From contig NZ_CP100763.1 in assembly GCF_024296685.1 (NCBI RefSeq), positions 2,976,001 to 3,040,000 of the forward strand: a stretch of 64,000 nt of DNA, given 5' to 3'. Made by a program: the position numbers and the translations under genes. Source of the DNA: Natrinema marinum (GTDB lineage: Archaea; Halobacteriota; Halobacteria; Halobacteriales; Natrialbaceae). The notes beneath the pieces were generated by a model, which had not been told where the DNA came from, ran no database searches, and was given only the letters and a program-made list of their open reading frames with translations. The first letter of the stretch is position 1; each line of letters opens with the position of its first letter. Of this stretch, positions 33,203-36,825 are shown piece by piece.

Positions 33203-35269
33203 GTGACATCTCGAGCCGCCGTCGTCGTGTTCGTCGTCGTGCTCGTCGGGAGCGTCCCGGCCGGCGTCGGCGCGCTCGAGCCGGCTCCCCAGCCAGCCTC
33301 GCCGGCACCGGCCGCGTCGCTCGCCGCGGCCGGGATGAGTTCCGGCGCGACGGTGACGACCGGCGGGGGCGAGGACGTGCTCCACCGGACGACGGTTCTC
33401 AGCCACCGCCCGGACGACACCGACGCGTTCGGCGTCGAGATGACCTTTCGGGTCCCCGACTCGGTGACGGAACTCGAGATCACGCTCGAGGAGGAGGCGA
33501 GCGTCGAGTCGACGCGCGGGTTCGAGCGGACGGGCGAGCGGACCTTCGAGTGGACCGGCGGGACGGCGTCGCCGACGGTGCGGTACGCGATGCCGGCCGA
33601 TCGGACGGGCGAGGGCGAGCAGCGGGCCTCGGCGTCCGGCGACGGCTACACCTTCGTCGATACGGGCGAGTGGGGCGTCGTGCCTGTCCCCGGCGTGGGG
33701 ATCACGGTGGGGCGGACCGAGCCCGTCGGTTTCGAGGAGACGGTGACCGTCGACGGACCGGGCGCGACCGGCGGCGACATCGCCTTCTTCGGCCCGGTGA
33801 CGACCTACGAGCGCGACGCGAACGGGGAGACGTTCCGGCTGGTCGTCCCCGAGGCCGCCGACCTCGAAGAGTCGCCCGATGCGATCCTCTCGGCGCTGAC
33901 CGCGGCGAGCGGCCGGCTCGAGGTCGGGATGCGAAGCGACGAGGTGTTCGTCGTCGCAGTGCCGAACACGGTCGACTGGGGGCCGCGGGGCATCCAGTAC
34001 GGCCGGTCGGACGCGTGGGTGGTCGACGACGCCGGCCTCGACGAACCGAACCCGGTCTGGCTCCACGAGTACGTCCACGTCCGCCAGCGCTTCTCCACCG
34101 CGGAGGACGACCTCGCGCCCGACGCCGCGTGGCTCGTCGAGGGGCAGGCCGACTACTACGCGGGCCTGCTCGCCCTCGAGGGCGGTCTCACCGACTTTTC
34201 GGACTTTCGTGACCTCCTCGAGCGCGGCGAGCGTTCGCTGTACGCCGACGGGGTGCTCGCTCGGCCGTCGACGTGGGAGGACGACCGCACCGATTACGCG
34301 AAGGGGGCGCTCGTCGCCGGCGAACTCGACCGCCGATTGCGGCTCGCGACCGACGGTGATCGCACGCTCGAGGATGTCTTCCGAACGCTGAACGCACGCG
34401 AGGGGACGATAACCGAGGCCGACTTCCTGGACGCGCTCGAGGACGCCGGCGGCAACGCGGTTCGAGCCGCCGCCGAGAAATACACGCAAACCGATGCGAC
34501 GCCGTCGATGTGGAGCCGACGCGACCATGAGGTCGCCTTCGACCAGCCGGTCGCCGTCTTCGAATACGGGATCGACAGCGGTCCGCTCGAGGTGGCGGGC
34601 CAGGAGTGGCAGCGCTGGTCGGCAGCAGCGAGCGGGGGCGAGAGCGAAGCTCCCGACGTGATCGCGGTTCCGGCCGGCGAATCCGTCTCGATCCCGGTCG
34701 CGGCCGCAAACGTCGGCGAGCGCGACGGGACTTACGACGCGATGTTGCAGGTCGACGGACGGGTCGTCGATCACCGGCGGGGAACGCTCGCGGCCGGCGA
34801 ACGGACGAGTCACCGGCTCACGTGGACGCCGGCTAAGCCGGGTACGTACGACGTTCGCGTCGGTTCCGAGCGACTGACCGCCGTCGTCCGCGCGCCCTCG
34901 AGCGTGACCGTCTCCGAACTGCGGGTCACGTCCGGAGCCGCCAGTCCCGGTGAGTCGGTGACGATGACCGCAACGGTCGAAGCCGCGGACGAGCGACCGG
35001 GCGCGGCGGTCCTCGCGTTCCGGACCGTCGAGGGAACCGTCGCGGAGCGGCCGGTGGCGGTTCGGCCGGGCGAGACGACGACGGTCGAGGCCGAACTCCG
35101 ATTCGACGACCGCGGCCGGTACGAGGTCGTCGTCGGCGAGGCGACGACGACGGTCAGCGTCGGTGGTCCGGCTGCGACGGTCGAAGAAGTGTCCGGATTC
35201 GGTGTGCCCTCGGCGCTCGCGGCCGTCGCGACGGCACTGGCGGGCGCGCTGCTCGCCCGGCGTCGCTGA
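33203..35269 (+). CDS. Secreted gluzincin-type metalloprotease-like protein with CTERM-like anchor
   Basis: The 688-residue protein starts with GTG and a Sec-type signal peptide (residues 1-24, VVVFVVVLVGSVPAGVGA). A beta-rich N-terminal domain (to about 270) precedes the zinc site. That site is HEYVH (His288, Glu289, His292) with the third ligand Glu313 in WLVEGQADYYA, a gluzincin arrangement. Two Ig-like or CARDB-like repeats follow (about 470-560 and 570-655). The C-terminus, SGFGVPSAL then a hydrophobic stretch ending RRR, resembles a PGF-CTERM archaeosortase signal with Ser for Pro. The protein is probably exported and anchored or lipid-attached at the cell surface. Substrate is unknown. 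CCATAAAC about 35 nt upstream may be its TATA box. Confidence 0.78.
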   Translation: MTSRAAVVVFVVVLVGSVPAGVGALEPAPQPASPAPAASLAAAGMSSGATVTTGGGEDVLHRTTVLSHRPDDTDAFGVEMTFRVPDSVTELEITLEEEASVESTRGFERTGERTFEWTGGTASPTVRYAMPADRTGEGEQRASASGDGYTFVDTGEWGVVPVPGVGITVGRTEPVGFEETVTVDGPGATGGDIAFFGPVTTYERDANGETFRLVVPEAADLEESPDAILSALTAASGRLEVGMRSDEVFVVAVPNTVDWGPRGIQYGRSDAWVVDDAGLDEPNPVWLHEYVHVRQRFSTAEDDLAPDAAWLVEGQADYYAGLLALEGGLTDFSDFRDLLERGERSLYADGVLARPSTWEDDRTDYAKGALVAGELDRRLRLATDGDRTLEDVFRTLNAREGTITEADFLDALEDAGGNAVRAAAEKYTQTDATPSMWSRRDHEVAFDQPVAVFEYGIDSGPLEVAGQEWQRWSAAASGGESEAPDVIAVPAGESVSIPVAAANVGERDGTYDAMLQVDGRVVDHRRGTLAAGERTSHRLTWTPAKPGTYDVRVGSERLTAVVRAPSSVTVSELRVTSGAASPGESVTMTATVEAADERPGAAVLAFRTVEGTVAERPVAVRPGETTTVEAELRFDDRGRYEVVVGEATTTVSVGGPAATVEEVSGFGVPSALAAVATALAGALLARRR

Positions 35270-35326: not shown

Positions 35327-35866
35327 TTACTCGAGGTCGACCCGGAACGTACACTCGTCGGCGCCGTCGTCGACGCAGGCCGTCTCCGTGACCGTCGCGT
35401 CGGCACCGTAGGCGGCGGCGAACCCCTCGAGGATGCCGTGAGCAAGTCCACAGTACTGCTGGTCCCGGTGGGTGTCGTACGTGACGACCGTCCCGTCTGA
35501 CTCGCGGGAACAGGAGATGGCCGGGAGCGACGCCTCCTTCGTCGCGTCGTCGACGTCGTCGTAGACGTCCTCGAGCGACGCGAGCAGTTCCGCGAACTCC
35601 CAGTCCCGGCGCAAGTGGGCGCTGAACGTCGAGAGCAGTTCGGGGGCGAGCGTCCGCCCGAAATCGCGCTCGATAGCGTCCCTGTCCTGGGTCGCCATCG
35701 ACGAGAGGCGTTCGAGGACGGTGTCGATCTCCGCGTCGTCGTAGTGGGTGACGGGGAGGTATAGCTTCGGCTCGAGGTCGGTCTGCTCGACGATCGTGTC
35801 CCAGGTGTCGTCGTCGGTTCGCTCGACGACGTACTCCTTGAGGGACTTGTGGACGATTCCGTGCAT
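35327..35866 (-). CDS. H-NOX (heme NO/O2-binding)-like protein with Tyr at the proximal ligand position
   Basis: The 179-residue protein has the length and layout of an H-NOX domain, starting MHGIVHKSLKEYV. By hand alignment to bacterial H-NOX, the heme-ligating His near residue 102 aligns with Tyr102 in LEDVYDDV. The YxSxR heme-propionate motif aligns with YDTHR (Tyr130, Thr132, Arg134). The C-terminus CVDDGADECTFRVDL matches the family. The ATG at 35866 fits H-NOX starts; an ATG at 35914 adds 16 residues. It lies 101 bp downstream of prs on the same strand and next to no cyclase, kinase or chemoreceptor gene. It may bind heme differently or sense another ligand. The fold is likely; the ligand assignment is from my alignment. 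Confidence 0.72.
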   Translation of the reverse strand: MHGIVHKSLKEYVVERTDDDTWDTIVEQTDLEPKLYLPVTHYDDAEIDTVLERLSSMATQDRDAIERDFGRTLAPELLSTFSAHLRRDWEFAELLASLEDVYDDVDDATKEASLPAISCSRESDGTVVTYDTHRDQQYCGLAHGILEGFAAAYGADATVTETACVDDGADECTFRVDLE

Positions 35867-35967
35867 GTGGCTCCCTTCTATCCGTTCTCGCGGCACTCTC
35901 GCGGTCGCCTCCATCGTGCCACGCGCTAACAGCTAGGTCAGTGTCTGGGGACTACTTAATCGTTTGC

Positions 35968-36825
35968 TTACAAGTGTCGTGCGAGAAGCGGGGCGATCGA
36001 GACGGTGTCGACGCCGCGCTCGATAGTGTCGGTGCCGTAGATCGCCTCGACGCCGGCCCGAGAGAGCTTCGTGACGGCGTTTCGGGCCAGCAGTGGGTGG
36101 ACGCAGGTGACGAAGACGCGGCCGACGCTCCGGTCGCGGAGGACGGCGACGGCCTCGCTCATCGTCGAGCCGGTCGCGATGATGTCGTCGACGACGACCA
36201 CGTCGCGGCCGGCCACGTCGACGTCGCTCGGGGTGATTTCGACCTCGGTGCCGGAGTGGCGAGTCTTCTCGAAGTAGTCGGTCTCGCCCGCGCCGTAGGC
36301 GTCGTGGACGGTCTCGGCGAGCTCGGTCGCGCCGGCGTCGGGCGCGAGGAAAACCGGCTCCGCGAGCTCGTCGGGTAGCGGTTCGGCCAGCCGGCTCGCC
36401 GCGTCGACCGCGGTCGCCGTCGGCTCGAAGAACTCACAGACGCCCTCCTCGTGGGGGTTGACGGTCAGGACGCGGTCCGTCCCGGTCGAAATCGCACGGG
36501 CAACCGCCCGCGCGGAGATGGGATGCCCTGGCTCGAAGGCCGCGTCCTGCCGGCCGTAGCCCATGTACGGCAAAACGGTGATGACCTCCTCGACGCCGGC
36601 TTCGCGGACCGCGTCCTGCAACTGGAGCACCTCGAGGTGGGCGTCGCTCGAGACGGTCGAGGCGACGATCACCGCCCGATCGGGCTCGGCGTCGGCGACG
36701 CCGGGGGCGGCCGCGAGCAGTTCGCCGTCGGGAAAGCGGTCGTACTCGACGGCGGCGAGTGGTTCCTCGAGTTCGCGTGCGAGCGCCGCGGCGAGGGCCT
36801 GCGACGCGGATCCGCTGACGATCAT
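35968..36825 (-). CDS. prs: Ribose-phosphate pyrophosphokinase
   Basis: The 285-residue enzyme makes PRPP from ribose 5-phosphate and ATP, feeding nucleotide and histidine synthesis and the upp salvage step. The PRPP-binding motif is VVVVDDIIATGSTM (209-222). PYMGYGRQD and HEEGVCEFF are the ATP and catalytic-loop regions, and HPISARAVA is present. The length fits the archaeal class. The ATG at 36825 begins the family (MIVSGSASQALAAALARE). The next gene upstream, 68 bp away on the same strand, is the beta-propeller protein, a conserved haloarchaeal neighbour as far as I recall. Confidence 0.95.
   Translation of the reverse strand: MIVSGSASQALAAALARELEEPLAAVEYDRFPDGELLAAAPGVADAEPDRAVIVASTVSSDAHLEVLQLQDAVREAGVEEVITVLPYMGYGRQDAAFEPGHPISARAVARAISTGTDRVLTVNPHEEGVCEFFEPTATAVDAASRLAEPLPDELAEPVFLAPDAGATELAETVHDAYGAGETDYFEKTRHSGTEVEITPSDVDVAGRDVVVVDDIIATGSTMSEAVAVLRDRSVGRVFVTCVHPLLARNAVTKLSRAGVEAIYGTDTIERGVDTVSIAPLLARHL

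Follow-up and report, generated by a model that had tools for sequence, protein, structure and literature searches.

H-NOX domains are regarded as defined by their proximal histidine, which was absolutely conserved in a survey of 598 sequences (PMC7108781). The gene at positions 35327..35866 (minus strand) of the 64-kb window, by which we mean the whole stretch of DNA analyzed, encodes a protein of 179 amino acids (plus stop) that resembles H-NOX and carries Tyr at the position of this His. The locus raises the question of whether such a protein still binds heme, through Tyr or otherwise, or whether it functions without heme. A literature search found neither a paper on the H-NOX proteins of haloarchaea nor one on an H-NOX with Tyr as heme ligand.

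Tyr at the proximal site of an H-NOX domain

The preliminary description of this locus had called the protein H-NOX-like on the strength of its length and both termini, and this assignment held. In a Pfam search, HNOB matched residues 2-160 with 89.5 bits (E 2.8e-25), far above its cut-off of 25.5 bits, while V4R gave a borderline match (30.9 bits, E 2.9e-7) that fell below its cut-off of 31.0. The single sequence aligned end to end with solved H-NOX proteins from S. woodyi (6ocv, E 1.6e-10) and S. oneidensis (4u99, E 3.8e-10), and a profile of 33 family members matched 2kii (E 2e-23) and also reached archaeal TRAPPC3 (E 1.2e-4). The plus strand of the same interval contains stops. Structure prediction had been proposed in the preliminary description. 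AlphaFold2 returned poor models (pLDDT 52 each, from a shallow alignment of six sequences) for both the 179-residue protein and a Natrinema homologue, P0004; S. oneidensis (So) H-NOX nevertheless ranked first in the PDB for the weak P0004 model (E 5e-7, TM 0.55, rmsd 7 Å), with TRAPPC3 next. The P0004 model bears on the H-NOX fold only, to which it lends weak support.

Tyr102 (codon TAC, 35561..35563, minus strand) occupies the proximal heme His position, as had been proposed from a hand alignment. It pairs with His103 of So H-NOX and with His102 of L002, a paralogue in the same genome, to which BLASTP aligned it without a gap from residue 1 to past residue 102. The spacing between Tyr102 and Pro115 is 13 residues, identical to that between His103 and Pro116 in So H-NOX. 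Helix αF contains no other His; together with the gap-free L002 pairing, this rules out a slip in the alignment, and no His can be placed at the proximal site. A lone substitution or sequencing error is likewise ruled out, by 71 homologues: the closest ones lack the His, as does every one of the 71 members of their clade. Neither of the two results that the preliminary description had named as refuting its proposal was obtained.

Descent and maintenance of the His-less clade

We surveyed 391 genomes of the class, 85 of which had HNOB matches; the sample covered the Halobacteria and part of the phylum. Among 112 usable domain sequences, 41 retained the proximal His and 71 did not. The host genome holds three HNOB genes, two of which (L001 and L002) belong to the 41 canonical haloarchaeal sequences, all with His. 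The 71 full-length His-less homologues came from two families of the haloarchaeal order Halobacteriales, one of them the Natrialbaceae. In a tree computed without alignment columns 6 and 102, the whole set fell on one side of a single branch (SH-aLRT 100), with one change between His and non-His compared to 39.5 expected for shuffled labels. Since this was a quick tree in which several canonical sequences formed long branches, we trust the clade itself and not the order of its sisters. The tree shows that His was lost once, in an ancestor within the Halobacteriales. Outside the class, every full-length H-NOX in the phylum-wide sample has the His, so the His-less clade looks haloarchaeal, and a search of viral contigs found no relatives. 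The absence of the His is a trait of the family and predates the genus Natrinema.

Position 102 itself is variable within the clade. Tyr is found in 40 of the 71 members, the remainder having Ala (10), Val (8), Thr (8), Arg (2), Ser (1), Ile (1) or Leu (1); even among 20 sampled congeners, two lack Tyr and have Ile and Ser instead. Within the clade the site ranks 122 out of 179 in conservation, whereas every canonical sequence has His there. All of the lineages that diverge first within the clade carry Tyr, which is probably ancestral, and at least six changes between Tyr and non-Tyr are needed on the tree. The codons for Ala, Val and Thr lie two base changes away from Tyr, making regain of Tyr less likely; the pattern would best fit a single change of His to Tyr followed by repeated loss of Tyr. 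Because 31 of the 71 members do without it, Tyr102 is dispensable, and together with the low rank of the site this makes a conserved Tyr-ligated heme unlikely as the function of the family.

Selection on the His-less H-NOX is purifying: pairwise dN/dS values ranged from 0.08 to 0.37, and were alike in Tyr and non-Tyr lineages. Among the 125 genomes that represent the host's family in the sample, about 76 have a full-length His-less copy. Single copies in three genomes (G387, G703 and G051) look broken, being frameshifted or split (G387:C49:33447, G703:C1:2582965 and L108). These broken copies, as well as the variability of helix αF, are what one would expect of a decaying relic without function. 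However, the dN/dS values and the number of full-length copies, as well as an upstream element and a gene place that are both conserved (see below), largely refute that reading, which we regard as very improbable.

The gene was described initially as a single gene beside prs with no cyclase, kinase or receptor nearby, and reading of the neighborhood bore this out. The upstream neighbor, prs (ribose-phosphate pyrophosphokinase; 35968..36825, minus strand), occupies this place in 51 of 70 His-less loci, at a distance of 69-231 bp. Downstream and convergent lies a gene for a conserved 688-residue protein with a CARDB domain (33203..35269, plus strand), present in 50 of the 70 loci. The conserved order is a phosphoglucomutase-like gene, an HVO_0234-like propeller, prs, H-NOX, the convergent CARDB gene and a further conserved gene, which in the window is ileS. 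Following the prs stop is a conserved intergenic block (35911..35967, minus strand; AAACGATTAAGTA ... TAGCTGTTAGCGCGTGGCACGA), kept in 17 loci of the Natrinema group, where it reads AAACGRTTAAGTA, then TAG-TGTTAGCGCGTGGCACGA. This block is probably the gene's own promoter or 5' element, with the putative promoter at about 35953-35965. The gap of 69-231 bp with its promoter-like block makes an operon with prs less likely, and we regard the His-less H-NOX gene behind prs as a unit of its own. The AAACGATTAAGTA core was found only once in the host genome, and the idea of a regulon defined by it was rejected.

Residues kept, lost and gained

Several features of the heme pocket outlasted the His. 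The heme-propionate motif YxSxR is present as YDTHR (residues 130-134; 35465..35479, minus strand), as noted in the preliminary description, with Ser replaced by Thr. This replacement is conservative, and Thr accounts for 37% of the clade at position 132 by weight. Weighted conservation of the motif across the clade was 96% for Tyr130, 99% for Ser/Thr132 and 91% for Arg134. Arg134 was lost in 5 of the 40 Tyr-bearing members, where it is replaced by Lys, Asn, His or Leu, and in none of the 31 Tyr-less members. The heme-distorting Pro of H-NOX, Pro115 (35522..35524, minus strand), was kept in 95% of the clade; His2, Gly70, His84 and Gly144 are kept as well. The pocket lining is entirely apolar (Val5, Leu9, Leu73, Ala74, Leu77, Leu141 and Ile145), and the set typical of O2-binding (Cs/Tt type) H-NOX, Tyr140 as distal H-bond donor with Trp9 and Asn74, is absent, with Leu141, Leu9 and Leu73 at those positions.

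Other positions distinguish the clade from canonical haloarchaeal H-NOX. His6 (35849..35851, minus strand) is found in 68 of the 71 His-less members and in none of the 41 canonical ones. Position 66 (35669..35671, minus strand), which is Leu in 86% of canonical sequences, is Glu here and Glu or Gln in 69 of the 71; in our alignment it corresponds to Ns Leu67, a residue in the wall of tunnel 1, which runs between αA and αD toward the distal pocket and is also lined by αA residues 5, 9, 12 and 13 (PMC7356049). Phe81 is present in 71/71 His-less sequences, compared to Tyr in 41/41 canonical sequences, and the αF residues Arg106 and Asn97 of canonical H-NOX were lost.

Cys139 (35450..35452), Cys164 (35375..35377) and Cys172 (35351..35353), all on the minus strand, correspond to the Zn-binding cysteines of S. 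oneidensis H-NOX, which carry the same residue numbers (PMC7108781). All three are kept in 62 of the 71 members, of which four were misaligned by C-terminal insertions and were read by eye; acidic low-complexity insertions lie between the second and third zinc-site Cys in L071, L072, L080 and L089. The cysteines have decayed in two lineages, both of them Tyr-less. At the position of the fourth Zn ligand (His/Gln161 in bacteria) the protein has Glu161, and most clade members have either Glu or Lys. Since canonical haloarchaeal H-NOX have the same Cys set, its role may be only structural.

Probable heme-independent signaling and its alternatives

We favor the view, with a probability of about 0.58, that the His-less H-NOX is a heme-independent 'pseudo-H-NOX' signaling adaptor in which Tyr102 fills the vacated proximal position rather than acting as a conserved ligand; the competing readings are not mutually exclusive, and their probabilities need not add up to one. 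The H-NOX copy that lost its proximal His in an ancestor within the Halobacteriales retained the fold, the pocket floor (Pro115 and YxS/TxR) and, in most members, the three zinc-site Cys. With that His gone, NO would not be read through an Fe-His bond, and ordinary heme-NO sensing is not expected. By comparison with H-NOX biology, the protein most likely acts as a small stand-alone adaptor: its two subdomains would move against each other, and a partner protein would read the movement. Support comes from the origin of the 71-member clade in one His loss, the variability of site 102 against 100% His in canonical sequences, the maintenance of the clade and the retention of the zinc-site Cys in 62/71. 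The repeated loss of Tyr from position 102 likewise suggests that the family probably functions without ordinary heme binding. There is also precedent: Cys oxidation elicits a response from heme-free V. cholerae H-NOX and, unlike NO, activates the Caulobacter protein (PMC12329717), sGC β with the H105C substitution is without heme, and the sGC α pseudo-H-NOX binds none (PMC8196705). Against this view, near-invariance of YxS/TxR is odd unless the pocket holds a carboxylate-bearing ligand, heme included, and So H-NOX with the H103G substitution was solved in its Fe(II)CO state (2kil), so loss of the His need not abolish heme binding.

With respect to what might trigger such an adaptor, oxidation of the zinc-site cysteines is our leading candidate, tentatively proposed by analogy with the V. 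cholerae and Caulobacter proteins; the decay of these cysteines in two lineages, the Glu or Lys at the fourth ligand position and the possibly structural role of a Cys set shared with canonical H-NOX all speak against it. Somewhat less probable, although possible, is that the old heme pocket instead accommodates a non-heme carboxylate, either hydrophobic or amphipathic, with YxS/TxR as its anchor, a reading that would replace the redox trigger and is compatible with heme-independent function. Persistence of YxS/TxR and Pro115 after His loss and the apolar lining are consistent with this, and cinaciguat, which binds Y135/S137/R139 of sGC β (PMC8448884), provides a structural precedent in heme-free sGC. 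Relatives with the V4R fold, one of which (TRAPPC3) was reached by the family profile, bind palmitate (TRAPPC3) and phenols (PoxR) (PMC10933270). YxSxR may, however, have been kept for fold stability alone, and the few Tyr-bearing members without Arg134 fit poorly with an anchored carboxylate.

Two further readings would retain a metal cofactor. An exchange of ligands, in which His6, perhaps with Glu66, binds heme or some other metal cofactor from the distal side, appears unlikely. In its favor, His6 and Glu/Gln66 mark the clade and position 66 lines the tunnel leading toward the distal pocket; nonetheless, position 6 is not among the published tunnel residues and its side chain may face away from the pocket, His6 is missing from three members, and the gained residues share one ancestry and so are not independent evidence. 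The proposal that heme is bound through Tyr, made in the preliminary description, is not supported as the leading reading, and we consider it slightly more doubtful still that Tyr102 serves as proximal ligand to a ferric heme in the Tyr-bearing members. Tyr does sit at the exact proximal position and is probably ancestral, YxS/TxR is retained, and Tyr-ligated heme is known in other folds, such as that of yeast Sfh5. Set against this, 31 of the 71 members, including the two congeners with Ile and Ser, have another residue under unchanged purifying selection, and Arg134 was lost exclusively among Tyr-bearing members, the opposite of what Tyr ligation predicts. The remaining suggestions of that description, that the protein may bind another tetrapyrrole or sense a non-heme ligand, are still alive because YxS/TxR and Pro115 were retained.

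Among known systems, the protein can be compared with the bacterial stand-alone NO-sensing H-NOX proteins (S. oneidensis SO2144, 4u99/2kii; S. woodyi 6ocv), with which it shares length, end-to-end alignment, Pro115, YxSxR, the Gly hinges and, in the So protein, the identically numbered Cys139/164/172. It differs from them in lacking the proximal His and a neighboring histidine kinase or cyclase, in the gain of His6, Glu66 and Phe81, and in the Glu or Lys at the fourth Zn position. The V. cholerae and Caulobacter proteins have the three zinc-site Cys in common with it and set a precedent for function without NO-heme sensing, but they keep the proximal His, are capable of binding heme and act on HnoK, a protein without an equivalent next to the gene described here. 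The human sGC α pseudo-H-NOX likewise has an H-NOX fold without proximal His and binds no heme; in contrast to the His-less H-NOX, a stand-alone domain starting at the canonical MHG N-terminus, it is part of a multidomain cyclase and has an N-terminal extension that plugs the pocket. The V4R/TRAPPC3 (Bet3)/MsvR family has a homologous proximal half with a Cys pair and binds hydrophobic ligands, but is without the N-terminal subdomain arrangement of H-NOX, which the His-less protein keeps in full. Haloarchaeal proteins of ~220 residues that match the proximal half only (about 70-175; L107/L140), with weak matches of this kind in G106, G033, G005, G246 and others, are perhaps a V4R-like group.

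The canonical paralogues L001 and L002 are 29-33% identical to the His-less protein over its whole length and have the same N-terminus and Cys set, but keep His102 and lack His6, Glu66 and Phe81. L002 (1498-2148) lies directly upstream of a gene with a methyl-accepting chemotaxis (MCP) signaling domain, and similar MCP genes adjoin canonical H-NOX in L102, L109 and L111, which suggests NO/O2 taxis in haloarchaea. At L001 261-2055, the second canonical H-NOX is followed by an abutting flavin amine oxidoreductase-like ORF.

The loss of the heme ligand is of greater interest than Tyr ligation. A monophyletic group of stand-alone H-NOX proteins with a single His loss and under purifying selection amounts to a natural experiment, one that separates the roles of the H-NOX fold that involve heme iron from those that do not, and the puzzling sGC α pseudo-H-NOX gains in it a simple counterpart made of a single domain. 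The repeated losses of Tyr to Ala, Val or Thr provide matched proteins in which heme, Zn-Cys redox chemistry and another ligand can be compared as the signal.
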